From: Pseudoxanthomonas sp.
GTDB taxonomy: Bacteria; Pseudomonadota; Gammaproteobacteria; Xanthomonadales; Xanthomonadaceae
NCBI RefSeq assembly: GCF_024710765.1
Contig: NZ_JANJUE010000167.1
Coordinates: forward strand, 1-46,298
Length of the DNA stretch: 46,298 bases
Direction of reading: 5' to 3'
Shown here: piece by piece, positions 31,956 to 38,800 of the stretch
Layout: each line of letters begins with the position of its first letter
How positions within the stretch are numbered: position 1 is the stretch's first letter
Made by a program: the position numbers and the translations under genes
The notes under the pieces: model-generated
What the model saw: the letters and a program-made list of their open reading frames with translations, nothing else
Told to the model about the DNA's origin: nothing
The model's database searches: none

Positions 31956-33674
31956 TCAGGATTCCTCGGTGACGCGCAGGACTTCCTCGATGGTGGTCTG
32001 GCCGGCCAGCGCCTTGGCGATGCCATCCTCGTACATCGTCCGCATGCCGGAGGCGCGCGCGATTTCCTCGATCTCGCCCATGCCGGCATGGCGCATCACC
32101 GCGCGGCGGAGTTCGTCGTTCATCACCAGGAACTCGACGATGGTGGTCCGGCCCAGGTAGCCGGTCGGCGCGATCGCCGACGGCCGCGGACGGTACAGGA
32201 CGATGTCGCCCTCCGGCTGGAAGCGGCGCAGGCCGAACTTCTCGATTTCCTCGGGCGAGGCGCGGTACGGCTCGGCATGGGTGGGCTCCAGCCGGCGCAC
32301 CAGCCGCTGCGCCAGGATGCCGTTGATGGTGGAGGTCAGCAGATAGTCCTCCACCCCCATGTCGAGCATGCGGGTGATGCCGCCGGCGGCGTTGTTGGTG
32401 TGCAGCGTGGAGAGCACCAGGTGGCCGGTCAGCGCGGACTGGATCGCGATGCGCGCGGTTTCCAGGTCGCGCATTTCGCCGATCATGATGATGTCCGGAT
32501 CCTGGCGGACGATGCTGCGCAGCGCATGCGAGAAATCCAGCCCGATCTGCGGCTTGGCCTGGATCTGGTTGATGCCCTCGATCTGGTACTCGACCGGATC
32601 CTCGACCGTGATGATCTTGACGTCGCTGGTGTTGAGCTTGCTCAGCGCGGTGTACAGCGTGGTGGTCTTGCCCGAACCGGTGGGACCGGTGACCAGCAGG
32701 ATGCCGTGCGGCTGTTCCAGCACCTTCTGGAACTGCGGCAGGAACACATCGGTGAAACCAAGCCGCTTGAAATCGAACACCACCGTCTCGCGATCCAGCA
32801 GGCGCATCACCACGCTTTCGCCGTGCGCGGTCGGCACGGTGCTCACGCGCAGATCCAGTTCCTTGCCCTGCACCCGCAGCATGATGCGGCCGTCCTGCGG
32901 CAGGCGGCGTTCGGCGATGTTGAGCTTGGCCATGATCTTGATGCGGCTGATCACGGCGGCGGTGAGGTTGGCGGGCGGGCTTTCGGCTTCCTCCAGCACG
33001 CCGTCCACGCGGTAGCGTACCTTCAGGCGGTTCTCGAACGGCTCGATGTGCACGTCCGAAGCGCGCAGTTCCACCGCGCGCTGGATGATCAGGTTGACCA
33101 GGCGGATCACCGGCGCTTCGGAGGCCAGATCACGCAGGTGCTCCACGTCGTCCAGATCGCCCGCGGCTTCGCCGTCGGCGTTCTCCACGATGGCGCCCAT
33201 CGCGCTGCGGCCCTGGCCGAAGTAGCGCTCGATCAGGTCATCGATCTCCGAGCGCAGCGCCACCTGCCGGCGCACCGCCTTGCCGGTCGCCAGCTGCACG
33301 GCGTCGACCGGATAACCGTCCTGCGGATCGGCCACCAGCAGATCCACCCCGGACTCGTCCTCGCCCACCGGGCAGACATGGAACTGCTTGAGGAACCGCA
33401 CCGACAGCGGCGTGGCTTCCGGCGGCAGTTCGGGCAGTTCCTTGACGCTGACCAAGGGCAGGCCGAGCACCTCGGCGGCGGTCTCGGCATGATCGCGCTC
33501 GGACACCAGGCCCAACCGCGACAGCAACGACAGCAGGCTGCCGCCGGTTTCCTCCTGCACCCGCCGCGCCCGCGCCAGATCCGGATCCTTGAGTTTTCCC
33601 CGCGCCAGCAGCGCATCGACCATCCGCTCTTCCACGCCGGCTCCGGTGGTCTGGGATTCGATCAGGGCGTTCAC
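31956..33674 (-). CDS. xpsE: Type II secretion ATPase XpsE (GspE)
   Basis: A 572-aa secretion ATPase. An N-terminal N1/N2 region (about 1-190) binds XpsL; the ATPase core has Walker A GPTGSGKTTT (330-339), the Asp box ITVEDPVEYQ, Walker B DPDIIMIGEMRD (392-403) and the His box LSTLHTNNA. In most GspE proteins a four-cysteine zinc motif follows (around RLVR...GRT). Here that region (QRLVRRLEPTHAEPYR ... YLGRTTIVEF) contains no cysteine; the only Cys in the protein is C101. GTG 33674 has GGAG 7 nt upstream. It is first in the xps order but separated from xpsF by the GH43 gene. Confidence 0.95.
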   Translation of the reverse strand: MNALIESQTTGAGVEERMVDALLARGKLKDPDLARARRVQEETGGSLLSLLSRLGLVSERDHAETAAEVLGLPLVSVKELPELPPEATPLSVRFLKQFHVCPVGEDESGVDLLVADPQDGYPVDAVQLATGKAVRRQVALRSEIDDLIERYFGQGRSAMGAIVENADGEAAGDLDDVEHLRDLASEAPVIRLVNLIIQRAVELRASDVHIEPFENRLKVRYRVDGVLEEAESPPANLTAAVISRIKIMAKLNIAERRLPQDGRIMLRVQGKELDLRVSTVPTAHGESVVMRLLDRETVVFDFKRLGFTDVFLPQFQKVLEQPHGILLVTGPTGSGKTTTLYTALSKLNTSDVKIITVEDPVEYQIEGINQIQAKPQIGLDFSHALRSIVRQDPDIIMIGEMRDLETARIAIQSALTGHLVLSTLHTNNAAGGITRMLDMGVEDYLLTSTINGILAQRLVRRLEPTHAEPYRASPEEIEKFGLRRFQPEGDIVLYRPRPSAIAPTGYLGRTTIVEFLVMNDELRRAVMRHAGMGEIEEIARASGMRTMYEDGIAKALAGQTTIEEVLRVTEES

Positions 33675-33777
33675 GTCGTACTCCGGCTGCGAGTATCCAC
33701 TTTACCAATGTCTACCATCATCCGGCGTCTTGGATATGGCCGGGCACGAGCGAAGTGCGGATGCCTGCCCACGTGCG

Positions 33778-34422
33778 CTAGCCCTTGGCCGAACCGACGG
33801 CCATGGTCCCGACCAGTTCGCCAATCCTGGTCACCGCGTCGGCGGACAGGGCGGATCGGTCCAGCCGCCGGAGCAAGGCTTCGCGCGCCACCGCGAAGGC
33901 GATGGCCTGGCCCAGGATGGCGTGCGCCCGCAGGATGTTCCCTTCCTCGCCGGGGGATTCATCCCGGATCGCCGCCACCAGATCCGTGACCGCTTCGTGC
34001 AGCGGCTGGAACAGGAGGCGGTGGAGCGTGTCGAAAGTCGGGGTTGGCTGGAGTTGCTCGCGTACCAGCATCAGGCTGTGCGCGGACGATGTATCGGAAT
34101 CCAGCAGGGCCGAAACGAACTCGCGCATCAGCGCGCGCAGGGCGTCCGCAGCCGCCTCGGGAGATCTCGCGGCCGGACACGGCAGGCGGAGCCGGCCGAC
34201 GATGCTCTCCGCGGTGCGCTCCAGCACCGCCGCATATACGCCATCCTTTCCTCCGAAGTGATAGGGGATGGCGGACTGGTTCACCCCCGCGTGCTCGGCG
34301 AGCTGGCGTGTCCGCACCCCTTCCAGACCTTGGCGACTGAACAGGACAAGACCCGCCCGGATGAGCTGTTCCCGCGTCTCCGCCGCGCGTTCGTTGGGAG
34401 TTTCCCTGTCCTGCGTCGTCAC
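33778..34422 (-). CDS. TetR-family transcriptional regulator, CecR-like
   Basis: A 214-aa regulator. The TetR helix-turn-helix is TREQLIRAGLVLFSRQGLEG, then TRQLAEHAGVNQSAIPYHFGGKDGVYAAVL. The ligand domain (AHSLMLVREQLQPTPTFDTLHRLLFQPLHEAVTDLVAA and HAILGQAIAFAVAREALLRRL) resembles the CecR (YbiH) C-terminal family. GTG 34422 follows an AAGGA Shine-Dalgarno. It lies 29 nt after the M24 gene, in one operon. The 40-bp palindrome upstream of that operon is the obvious candidate operator. The inducer is unknown. Confidence 0.85.
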   Translation of the reverse strand: MTTQDRETPNERAAETREQLIRAGLVLFSRQGLEGVRTRQLAEHAGVNQSAIPYHFGGKDGVYAAVLERTAESIVGRLRLPCPAARSPEAAADALRALMREFVSALLDSDTSSAHSLMLVREQLQPTPTFDTLHRLLFQPLHEAVTDLVAAIRDESPGEEGNILRAHAILGQAIAFAVAREALLRRLDRSALSADAVTRIGELVGTMAVGSAKG

Positions 34423-34451
34423 TGCCTGTTTTCCTTTCCGCCTTGGCGCAT

Positions 34452-35708
34452 CTACGCGTGCGCGTGCATCAACCGCGTCGAATTCTCGTTGAGCGCCACG
34501 CCTTCGCGTTCGCCGACGACGACCGTACCGCCGATGTTGGCAAGATGGCGTCCGAATGCACAATTCGGCTCGAATGCGAAGCACATGCCCGCCTGCAACG
34601 GCACTTCCCGGCCCACCGTGGGCAACCGGCTGAGCTGCTTGTAGGCCGCCGCCTCGGGCAGCGATTCTATGCCAGGCGCGGTGCCGAAGCCGACCGGGCC
34701 ATAGGGATTGATGCTGTGGACCAGCGGATGGACGTGCCAGCCTCCCGACGCGAGCAATGGTGCCTCCATGGCATCCACCAGATCGCCGAATGTGTTGCCT
34801 GCGCGCAGGGCCGCCAGTCCAGCCTCATAGCTCTCACGCGCCACTTCGGCGGCGCGCAGGATGTCCGCATGGACCTCGCCGACGGCGACGGCGGCCTGAT
34901 GCTGGGTCTCCACCATGCCGTACAGCGCGAAAATCTCGGACAACACGATATCGCCTTCCCGCAGTACCCGCGGCCGCTGCGCACGGTACTGCCATGCGGG
35001 CGGCCCCCAGCCGACGTAGTCCGGGCCCGAGCCCAGCAGGATCTCGGCCGTATAGCCGCCCATGGAGAAACAGGTGCCGGTCACCGCCGCCACCAGCTCG
35101 GCCTCGGACACGCCCGGCCGCGCGGTAGCCCGGAGTGTTTCGCTCATCGCCTCGCCGATATGCGCCGCATAGCGCACCAGGCCCAACTCTTCCTCGCTCT
35201 TGATCGATGCGCGCTGGAAGAAGGCGCGGTAAACGGGCACGAACTCCGACCGCGGCAGGGCCTCGCTCAGGCCCTGCATGGTTCGCGCGGGCAGCACGCC
35301 GTCGAAATAGAACGGTGGATAGGGTTCCAGGCCGATCACGCCGATGCGCGCGCCATCCAGCTTGCGGCTGGCCAGCCACGCGCCGACATCGCGGCCGGTC
35401 TTGCCCACGAACAACTGTTCGGGCGGCACCCATTGCAGGTCTCCACGCAACGCCGCCTGGATGTGGTCGGCGACCATGAGCGATGCGAAGGTATGCACCC
35501 TGGGGGCCTCGTCGCCGACGAACACCACGATTGAGCCTGGCCGGTCATTGGTGAAGTAGCAATCGGGGGAGAAGTTGGCGGGTGCGGCGGCCTCCCGGTC
35601 TCCGTAGACGATCAGGGCATCGAGGCGCTCGGCCTGCATCAGCGACCGTGCGAGGTTCCAGCGCCGGTCTCGTTCTGCGAGCGACAGGGGTTCGGGAATG
35701 CGGGACAT
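34452..35708 (-). CDS. M24 (creatinase/Xaa-Pro aminopeptidase) fold protein with altered metal ligands
   Basis: A 418-aa two-domain protein of the creatinase/prolidase fold: a creatinase-N-like domain (DALIVYGDREAAAPANFSPDCYFT) and a pita-bread C-terminal domain (GDIVLSEIFALYGMVETQHQ ... GMCFAFEPN). The canonical M24 metal set D-D-H-E-E is altered. The first Asp position reads E258 (VLSE), the second appears as E267, only E380 (FAFEPN) is standard, and the final Glu (R-x-E-D) is replaced by NIGG (G393). It is therefore more like creatinase, ectoine hydrolase (DoeA) or DddP-type relatives than a peptidase. ATG 35708 has GGAG at 6 nt; upstream ATGs at 35720 and 35738 are less likely, the latter lying inside the palindrome. 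Confidence 0.8.
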   Translation of the reverse strand: MSRIPEPLSLAERDRRWNLARSLMQAERLDALIVYGDREAAAPANFSPDCYFTNDRPGSIVVFVGDEAPRVHTFASLMVADHIQAALRGDLQWVPPEQLFVGKTGRDVGAWLASRKLDGARIGVIGLEPYPPFYFDGVLPARTMQGLSEALPRSEFVPVYRAFFQRASIKSEEELGLVRYAAHIGEAMSETLRATARPGVSEAELVAAVTGTCFSMGGYTAEILLGSGPDYVGWGPPAWQYRAQRPRVLREGDIVLSEIFALYGMVETQHQAAVAVGEVHADILRAAEVARESYEAGLAALRAGNTFGDLVDAMEAPLLASGGWHVHPLVHSINPYGPVGFGTAPGIESLPEAAAYKQLSRLPTVGREVPLQAGMCFAFEPNCAFGRHLANIGGTVVVGEREGVALNENSTRLMHAHA

Positions 35709-35730
35709 GTCTTGCTCCATGGGGGTTTCG

Positions 35731-35770
35731 GGATGCATATTAATTCATTTGAATGAATTAATATGCATCC
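35731..35770. promoter_or_regulatory. 40-bp palindromic operator upstream of the M24-tetR operon
   Basis: An 18-bp perfect inverted repeat (left arm GGATGCATATTAATTCAT, 35731-35748; right arm 35753-35770) around the spacer TTGA. It is about 72% A+T in a very GC-rich region. It lies 22 nt upstream of the preferred M24 start and is much longer than a chance repeat. By analogy it is the operator of the linked TetR repressor. Being symmetric, it would span two overlapping half-site pairs. Confidence 0.8.
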
Positions 35771-35839
35771 ACACTGCCCGGTGGCTTTGCCTTGCTTGCG
35801 GTCCAAGCATCCGGCCTCAGGGCGCTAGCCTGTTCCCAG

Positions 35840-35864
35840 AAAAAAAGCGGCGCCGGGGCGCCGC
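35840..35864 (-). terminator. Intrinsic terminator of purL
   Basis: On the minus strand GCGGCGCC / GGCGCCGC forms a tight stem (effectively 7 bp with a 4-nt loop) immediately followed by seven Ts (35846-35840). It begins 28 nt after the purL stop. Confidence 0.88.
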
Positions 35865-35892
35865 TTCGCGTTCGTCGCTATGAGTTGGGCGC

Positions 35893-38800
35893 TCAGCCCA
35901 CCCAGACCCGCGCGTTGCGGAACATCCGCAGCCACGGCGAATCCTCCGGCCAGTCGGCCGGCGCCCAGCTCAGGTTGACGCTGCGCGGGGTGCGCTCCGG
36001 GTGCGGCATCAGGATGGTGGAGCGGCCGTCGTCGCTGGTCAGGCCGGTGATGCCGTCGGGCGAACCGTTCGGGTTGAGCGGGTACTGCGTGGCCACCTGC
36101 CCGCCGCCGTCGATGTAGCGCAACGCGACCCGCGCGGCGGCCTGGTCGACACCGCTGTCGAACTCGGCGCGGCCCTCGCCGTGCGCCACCGCGACCGGAA
36201 TGCGCGAACCGGCCATTCCGCGGAAGAACACCGAGGGCGACTCCAGCACTTCCAGCAGCGAGGTGCGGGCCTCAAACTGTTCGCTGCGGTTGCGCAGGAA
36301 ACGCGGCCAGTGGGTCGCGCCGGGAATGATGTCCTTCAGCTGGCTCAGCATCTGGCAGCCGTTGCACACACCCAGCGAGAACGTGTCGCCACGCGCGAAG
36401 AACGCGGCGAACGCCTCGCGCAGCGCGCTGCGTTCCAGCACCGAGGTGGCCCAGCCACGGCCGGCGCCGAGCACGTCGCCGTAGCTGAAACCACCGCAGG
36501 CGGCGAAGCCCTTGAAGTCGGCCAGCGAGACACGACCGGCGATCAGATCGCTCATGTGCACGTCGTAGGCATCGAAGCCGACGCGATCGAAGATCGACGC
36601 CATCTCGATCTGGCCGTTGACGCCCTGCTCGCGCAGGATCGCCACCTTCGGACGCGCCCCGGTGGCGATGAACGGCCCCGCCACGTCCTCGGCCGGATCG
36701 AACGTCAGCTTCGGCTTCAGGCCGGCGCCGCCGAACTGGCGCGCGGCGGCGCGTTCCTGATCGGCCGCTTCCGGGTTGTCGCGCAGTTTCTGCATCGCGT
36801 GGGTCACCGACCACCAAGCATCGAACAGCGCCTCCCAGCGCCATTCGCTCAGGCTCTCGCCATCCTGGTGCACGCGCACCACCGGCGCGGTGGTCGGGCG
36901 GGCGATGCGCTGCGCGCACTCGATCAGGGCGTGGCGTTCGACCAGATCCGCGAACGCGGCGCGGTCCTCGTCGGCCACCTGCACCACCGCGCCGAGTTCC
37001 TCGGCGAACAGGGTGCGGAAGGGATCGTCGCCCCAACCGTCGAGGTTGATGTCCAAGCCCAGGTGCGAGGTGAACGCCATTTCGCACAGGGTCGCGAAGG
37101 CACCGCCGTCGCTGCGGTCGTGGTAGGCCAGCAGCAGGCCCGCCTCGCGCGCATCGCGGATCAGCGCGAAGAAATCGCGCAGGCGCTGCGGGTCATCAAG
37201 ATCCGGCACGCCATCGTCGGCATCCTCGCCGGCGAAGGCCGGCAGGCCGTCGCGACCACCGGCATCGGGATGGACCTGCGCCAGCACCGAACCGCCCAGG
37301 CGCTTCTTGCCCGCGCCCAGGCCGATCAGCCACAGATCGCTGGCCTCCTCGCGCCGCAGCAGCGGAGTGAGCTGGCCGCGCACGTCGGTCACCGGCGCGA
37401 ACGCGCTGATCACCAGCGAGACCGGCGACACCGATTTCCGCGCGCCGTCCTCGCCCTGCCATTGCGCCTGCATGGACAGGGAATCCTTGCCGACCGGGAT
37501 GCTGATGTCGATTTCCGGGCACAGTTCCATGCCGATGGCGCGGACCGCGTCGAACAGCAGCGCATCCTCGCCGTCATGGCCGGCCGCGGCCATCCAATTG
37601 GCGGACAGCTTGATCCGATCCAGCGACTCGATCGGCGCGGCGCACAGGTTGGTGATCGCCTCGCCCACCGCCATGCGGGCGGCGGCGGCGGCATCCAGCA
37701 GCGCCAGCGGCGTGCGTTCGCCGATCGCCATCGCCTCACCGCTGAAGCGGCTGTAGTCCGACAGGGTGATCGCGCAGTCGGCGACCGGCATCTGCCATGG
37801 ACCGACCAACTGGTCGCGCGCGGTCAGGCCACCGACGCTGCGATCGCCAATCGTGATCAGGAACTGCTTGGCCGCCACGGTCGGATGCGCCAGCACGCGC
37901 AGGCCCGCCTCGTGCAGATCGAGCTTCGCGGTGTCCAGCGCGGGCCACGGCGCCGGCGCCGGATGGCGGGTGTCGCGGTGCATCTTCGGCGCCTTGCCGA
38001 ACAGCACGTCCATCGGCAGGTTGATCGGCGCGTCGGCCGGAATCGAATCCGGGGTGGCGCCGTAGGCCACGACCAGGCGCTCCTCCGCGGTCGCCACGCC
38101 CACCGCCGCGAACGGGCAACGCTCGCGCTCGCACAATGCGGCGAATTCGGCCAGGCGCGCCTGCGGCACGCCCAGCACGTAGCGCTCCTGCGATTCGTTG
38201 CACCACAGTTGCATCGGCGACAGCGAAGGATCGTCGGTGGGCACCTTGCCCAGATCGATCACGCCGCCCACGCCGGAGTCGTGCAGCAGTTCCGGGATGG
38301 CATTGGACAAGCCGCCCGCGCCGACGTCGTGGAACCACAGGATCGGATTGTCCTCGCCCATCGCCACGCAGCGATCGATGACTTCCTGGCAGCGCCTTTC
38401 CATTTCCGGGTTGTCGCGCTGCACGCTGGCGAAATCCAGGTCCTCGGCGCTCTCGCCGGAGGCAACCGAACTGGCCGCGCCGCCGCCCAGGCCGATCAGC
38501 ATGGCCGGGCCGCCGAGCACGATCACCGCATCGCCCGGCGACAGGGTCTTCTTCTGCACCTGGCCGCGATCGATCGCACCCAGGCCGCCGGCCAGCATGA
38601 TCGGCTTGTCGTAGGCGCGCGCCAGCGCGTCGCCCTGCGCCAGTTCGAAACTGCGGAAGTAACCGAGCAGGTTCGGGCGGCCGAATTCGTTGTTGAACGC
38701 GGCACCGCCCAGCGGGCCGTCCAGCATGATTTCCAGCGCCGGGGCCATGCGCGGATTGAGCACGCGCTCGGCTTCCCAGGGCTGCGGCAGGGTCGGGATG

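Follow-up and report, generated by a model that had tools for sequence, protein, structure and literature searches.

A perfect 40-bp palindrome in a Pseudoxanthomonas contig is, on sequence evidence, very probably the operator of the TetR-family regulator encoded beside it. That regulator would bind the palindrome and repress an autoregulated M24–tetR operon, the two genes being predicted to be co-transcribed and a ligand to relieve the repression. The palindrome keeps its position before the M24-fold gene in related bacteria, usually occurs once per genome, and co-occurs with one type of TetR recognition helix. The window, the whole stretch of 46,298 nucleotides that was analysed, contains the following features around this site.

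35,731–35,770, unstranded: perfect palindrome, 19-bp arms and 2-nt spacer (sequence, simulation)
35,740–35,761, unstranded: predicted operator core, 22 bp, TTAATTCATTYRAATGAATTAA (alignment with relatives)
35,744–35,757, unstranded: most conserved 14 bp of the core, TTCATTYRAATGAA (conservation in relatives)
35,731–35,739, unstranded: M24-proximal outer arm, similar to the flank of L012, a relative with 95% identity (7/11 columns)
35,762–35,770, unstranded: upstream outer arm, unlike L012 (1/9 columns) and mirroring the opposite outer arm perfectly
35,737–35,742, minus strand: presumed −10 hexamer TAATAT (position from alignment with relatives)
35,760–35,765, minus strand: place of the −35 hexamer, reading CATATT (1/6) versus TTGATT in many relatives (alignment with relatives)
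35,715–35,718, minus strand: presumed ribosome-binding site GGAG (sequence)
34,452–35,708, minus strand: M24 protein of 418 aa with the pita-bread fold, likely a hydrolase; start probably at 35,708
33,778–34,422, minus strand: TetR-family regulator with a CecR_C domain, presumed recognition-helix segment VNQSAIPYHFGG
35,844–35,867, minus strand: site resembling an intrinsic terminator, behind the upstream gene purL (sequence scan)

The palindrome and its gene pair

The palindrome consists of two 19-bp arms, 100% complementary, around a 2-nt spacer. An earlier note on this DNA had placed a 40-bp palindrome at the same coordinates, which stands, but had described it as 18-bp arms with a 4-nt spacer, which the sequence corrects. 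When folded as single-stranded DNA, the 40-mer forms 18 pairs and a 4-nt loop (−16.4 kcal/mol, DNA parameters). Its G+C content is 27.5% against about 69% in the window, in agreement with the AT-rich element in a region of roughly 70% G+C noted before. Perfect arms of at least 19 bp (spacer 0–10) are expected 2.3e-5 times per such window, and in 30 simulated Markov-1 windows the longest arm measured 9–14 bp. The palindrome is real and far beyond chance.

As had been recognised previously, the palindrome precedes genes for an M24-fold protein and a TetR regulator. The gene next after M24 is tetR, separated by a gap of 29 bp. Taken at its longest, the M24 reading frame (ATG at 35,738) overlaps the palindrome; the likely start is the ATG at 35,708, because the coding sequence of relatives begins to align at this codon, which is preceded by GGAGCAAGAC, and 22 bp lie between it and the end of the palindrome. 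The M24 protein matches Peptidase_M24 (PF00557) at 68 bits (cut-off 23), while the regulator matches TetR_N (PF00440) at 43.5 bits and CecR_C (PF09209) at 82.3 bits (cut-off 24 for each), which assigns it to the TetR family and the CecR_C subfamily. By the NCBIfam equivalog NF008587 the regulator is not CecR itself (105.9 bits versus 365), and the M24 protein falls far below the equivalog cut-off for the ectoine hydrolase DoeA (40.7 bits versus 613).

Conservation of the operator core

Scanning genome contigs with six peptide patterns gave a first set of 38 M24 loci, which comprises close relatives only and is no census. By record title these lie in what we take to be Proteobacteria, Bacteroidota and Actinomycetota. 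Twenty-one carry a TetR with the segment VNQ[SA]AIPYH, seven (Stenotrophomonas) a TetR with CSQSAIPYH, and ten have no TetR match in the examined flank. L107, apparently the L028 locus again, was left out of the counts, L122 (10/14), which may equal L031, was kept out of the seven Stenotrophomonas loci, and L138 and L139, the halves of one split gene, were counted once. That split gene comes from genome G1448, sampled in the Proteus family, where M24 is broken into two frames and the operator and tetR remain.

The site is present in all 21 VNQ-type loci of the first set. Four later loci, which came to light once the 22-bp pattern had been fixed, match it at 18–21 of 22 positions and carry the VNQ helix; the 14-bp motif was composed only after those four had been viewed. 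Three further VNQ-helix loci, found after the 14-bp motif was fixed, match it at 14/14 and extend a 26-locus set (the window plus 25 relatives) to 29. A search of related genomes upstream of M24/TetR pairs, as proposed in the earlier note, bears out the core and not the outer arms: 12–14 of the 14 positions match before M24 in 28 of 28 relatives whose TetR carries VNQ[SA]AIPYH, and the full outer arms were not seen in these relatives. Hosts include Pseudoxanthomonas, Serratia, Achromobacter, Comamonas, Cupriavidus, Proteus and others, and the record titles of VNQ-type loci span, presumably, Xanthomonadales, Enterobacterales and Burkholderiales. The Proteus TetR shares the helix segment and the operator even though it is only about 34–35% identical overall to that of the window.

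All 29 loci, which are non-independent (several congeners), thus hold a site of at least 12/14, with 24 at 14/14, four at 13/14 (L018, L020, L115 and L119) and one at 12/14 (L014). Shuffled upstream regions score 6–12, with none at 13 or above and 21 at 12 (5,200 single-base shuffles of 26 regions), so that the 12/14 of L014 is also reached by some shuffles. In this Achromobacter locus the two half-sites are spaced wider, GATTCATTCATTTGATTTAATCAAGTGAATGAATTAATC, as a rearranged operator, and the TetR helix reads NQAAIPYH. The central dinucleotide in the 26 loci is TG in 14, CA in 11 and CG in one, a tally in which the motif scoring itself favours a Y-R centre; the TG/CA mix fits spacer inversion and, equally, a protein preference for the Y-R step.

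The ten loci without an adjoining TetR match, two of them unjudgeable, score 6–10/14 and have no site. The match in L045 starts at residue 173, so its apparent upstream region is not truly upstream, and in L047 only 212 bp follow M24, which leaves TetR absence there unjudgeable. We therefore read the 40-mer best as a predicted operator, because its core recurs with the VNQ helix and is absent without such a TetR. The seven Stenotrophomonas loci, whose TetR is about 50% identical to that of the window, score 10–11/14, within the shuffle range. Another operator form must serve them, because the gene pair is kept without this operator. A different upstream element, TTGATTCATTCATCTGCGTGATC, is conserved in six of the seven (L027–L032 and L042), and is perhaps the operator of Stenotrophomonas. 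The VNQ and CSQ loci amount to a natural experiment in changing a recognition helix together with its operator.

Across whole genomes, 19 of 21 VNQ-helix hosts have exactly one site within two mismatches of the 22-bp pattern, at M24; the genomes of L014 and L020 have no site within three mismatches. A pattern search allowing up to three mismatches found no second copy in the window's own genome, and sites within one mismatch are absent from the 368 other genomes sampled in the class. Three-mismatch hits also occur in Proteus, Bacteroidota and two Serratia genomes, with a similar reversed control in several; those in Proteus are at chance level, because the reversed control gives up to three hits per strand in some genomes.

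Instead of being an operator, the palindrome could be a hairpin site that serves recombination, transposition or replication; the earlier note had considered, from its size, a recombination or hairpin site as a second role. It is a long, AT-rich and perfect hairpin, and the gene pair is patchy and sits in a variable purL–gspE junction. Against this, the site keeps its place relative to M24, together with one TetR helix type, despite differing host neighbours; it was not found where TetR is absent, a second genome copy was not found, and the conserved part measures only 14–22 bp. We regard such a site as highly improbable. A search for a repeat or recombination element with a 111-bp probe returned only the reverse strand of the palindrome and four short hits (E 2.9–5.4), and this candidate was rejected.

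Promoter context and predicted operator function

In 17 of 26 loci the best promoter is TTGATT, 17 bp and a −10-like hexamer; the 14-bp core falls between the two hexamers, and the 22-bp core slightly overlaps both. The window aligns with this arrangement at its presumed −10 hexamer, but its own promoter is poor: CATATT stands at the −35 place, and a sigma-70 consensus scan of the window matched no promoter here. The TTGATT box is absent from all five Proteus loci too.

Operators of 14–22 bp are of ordinary size for TetR proteins. We propose that a dimer of the adjacent CecR_C-type regulator would bind the inner 14–22 bp, TTAATTCATT-YR-AATGAATTAA. Because the 14-bp centre sits between the −35 and −10 hexamers of the M24–tetR promoter in many relatives, binding would repress both genes. 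A ligand, probably the substrate of the M24 enzyme or a related compound, would then release TetR. The outer arms would be a private extension, perhaps one flank copied onto the other by template switching. The palindrome thus reads as a TetR-type operator normal in kind with an unusual private extension. An autoregulated M24/TetR operon had been thought likely before, and conservation in 28 relatives now supports the palindrome well as its predicted operator.

The strong hairpin potential of the element (DNA parameters) could alternatively act in the transcript, as an attenuator or in translation control. Relatives, however, keep the core with shorter arms, and the palindrome itself would go untranscribed, because the −10 hexamer lies inside it and transcription would start near its M24-proximal end. 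An effect at the transcript level therefore seems barely credible beside the predicted operator.

Origin and role of the outer arms

The outer eight pairs are 8/8 in the window versus 0–3/8 in the 28 relatives, and the outermost six are 6/6 versus 0–3/6. The next longest arms, of 13 bp, are those of L134, so that only the last six pairs are strictly private to the window genome.

The size of the palindrome had been taken in the earlier note to suggest two TetR dimers binding cooperatively. On such a reading the full 40 bp would be functional, with the dimers side by side or overlapping and the outer arms as their second half-sites. Symmetry is indeed perfect over 40 bp, and an extra half-site of the TTCATT or TTCACT type lies 13–30 bp upstream of the core in five of 26 loci (L016, L020, L108, L115 and L119), with more distant ones in L015 (74 bp) and L046 (45 bp), so that multi-dimer binding is possible in relatives with extra half-sites. 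In the window, though, the outer arms GGATGCAT and ATGCATCC are unlike the half-site TTCATT, and the eight outer pairs are not kept in relatives. As the window has no additional half-site, the length of its palindrome is no evidence for two dimers. We rejected the size argument as the main reading, since only the core is conserved, and judge a functional 40-bp site for two dimers improbable. The length of a palindrome by itself says little about how many repressors bind it.

The core could also be an operator whose perfect outer arms arose as a fold-back artefact of assembly or sequencing. The genome is a draft of 443 contigs, and the outermost arms are unseen in the 28 relatives. Fold-back artefacts, however, are usually much longer inverted copies, whereas here the symmetry ends at 40 bp and the flanks continue to purL and M24 within one 46-kb window. 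We consider an artefact quite unlikely, and treat the arms as a private extension of the predicted operator.

At flank composition, the chance of nine further pairs is 7.5e-6. For the six private pairs, at 0.27 per pair, it is about 4e-4 per operator and about 1% over 29 operators, and a chance origin is unlikely. L012 is the sole close relative found; on the M24 side 7 of 11 columns of its flank agree with the window, against 1 of 9 upstream. Template switching may have copied the M24-side flank upstream, and would account for the private symmetry as well as for the loss of the −35 box. The direction of copying is weakly supported, because sequence further upstream matches between L012 and the window in only 16 of 30 positions. 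Imperfect inverted repeats can become more perfect or longer, and their spacers can invert (PMC7202029 and PMC8604942). The likeness to the quasipalindrome cases presented there lies in arm perfection and in a spacer that, among the relatives here, may read TG or CA. A parental sequence could be inferred for those cases, whereas here there is one close relative with an upstream flank too diverged for a firm reconstruction. It is a tentative and somewhat doubtful proposal that a template switch made a 22–28-bp operator into a perfect 40-bp one and overwrote the −35 hexamer, and that, separately, the VN/CS helix difference would be the specificity switch accompanying operator change in this regulator family. 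If true, the symmetry of a repressor site and the strength of a promoter would have been altered in a single mutational step.

Relation to known systems

The local targets of Escherichia coli CecR (YbiH), a TetR-family regulator, are the cecR–ybh operon and rhlE (PMC8249747). The window TetR shares with CecR the TetR_N and CecR_C architecture and a gene beside its target, and its best PDB sequence match is CecR (9i1x, E 1.3e-21). It differs in the helix segment, GQNIAAITYYFGS in CecR versus GVNQSAIPYHFGG in the window TetR, and in its partner, an M24-fold gene where CecR has an ABC exporter. In Serratia sp. PL17 (L013:6942-10185), tetR is convergent with two ABC2-membrane genes and an HlyD-type gene, recalling the ybh target of CecR; apart from the site at M24, this genome has no good copy of the operator.

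Promoter-overlapping operators of the TetR family are described as short palindromes with the regulator encoded beside its target (PMC6790063). The site in the window resembles these in being a short palindrome at a presumed promoter, with a regulator adjoining its target. Unlike in them, the outer arms carry the symmetry out to 40 bp, and a good −35 hexamer is lacking. A literature search among open-licence papers found no description of an M24–tetR operon.

The structure model of the M24 protein (pLDDT 88.5) has the pita-bread fold, which it shares with the ectoine hydrolase DoeA/EutD and creatinase. DoeA gives its best fold matches, from which it differs in that identity is only 18–19%. Two Asp positions of 5cdl, which we take to be ligands of a dinuclear metal site, align with E258 and Q269, and the Asp-Asp ligand pair is thus missing from the M24 protein. 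Both residues are invariant across 15 aligned M24 proteins. Because the Asp ligand positions read E258 and Q269, the protein is probably a non-peptidase hydrolase, and the sequence and model together suggest an enzyme that is probably more DoeA/creatinase-like than peptidase-like. Neighbouring genes were rejected as a clue to the substrate; the examined neighbours vary between hosts.

Distribution and genomic setting

Strong M24 matches were found in 2 of 37 genomes of the genus, namely the window's own and that of L012 (Pseudoxanthomonas sp. z9, G036), in 4 of 149 genomes of the family sample and in 2 of 369 of the class sample. Samples drawn around other hosts gave 13 of 268 for the family of Achromobacter pulmonis (G434), 4 of 30 for the genus of Serratia sp. 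PL17 (G429), 1 of 379 for the order sample of Cupriavidus basilensis (G432) and 5 of 295 for the family sample of Proteus terrae (G449); the samples overlap, and some include the genome around which they were drawn. This patchy distribution of M24–tetR suggests horizontal transfer, and the operon is probably mobile. Among plasmid records, three contain an M24 relative at E 1e-30 or better: two are Proteus records of 4 Mb, and the third is a Rhodococcus plasmid (39.5% identity). The core provides a concrete predicted operator for a regulator/hydrolase pair that seemingly moves between distant bacteria.

In Pseudoxanthomonas, the purL–gspE junction (33,674–35,893 in the window; also L012 and L104) is a variable spot. 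Among 30 purL loci, gspE follows purL within about 50–175 bp in 13, and was unseen in the examined flank of the other 17. The junction holds M24–tetR alone in the window, a YadA-type adhesin gene with an S8 protease gene in G012, and all of these, adhesin, S8 protease and M24–tetR, in L012.
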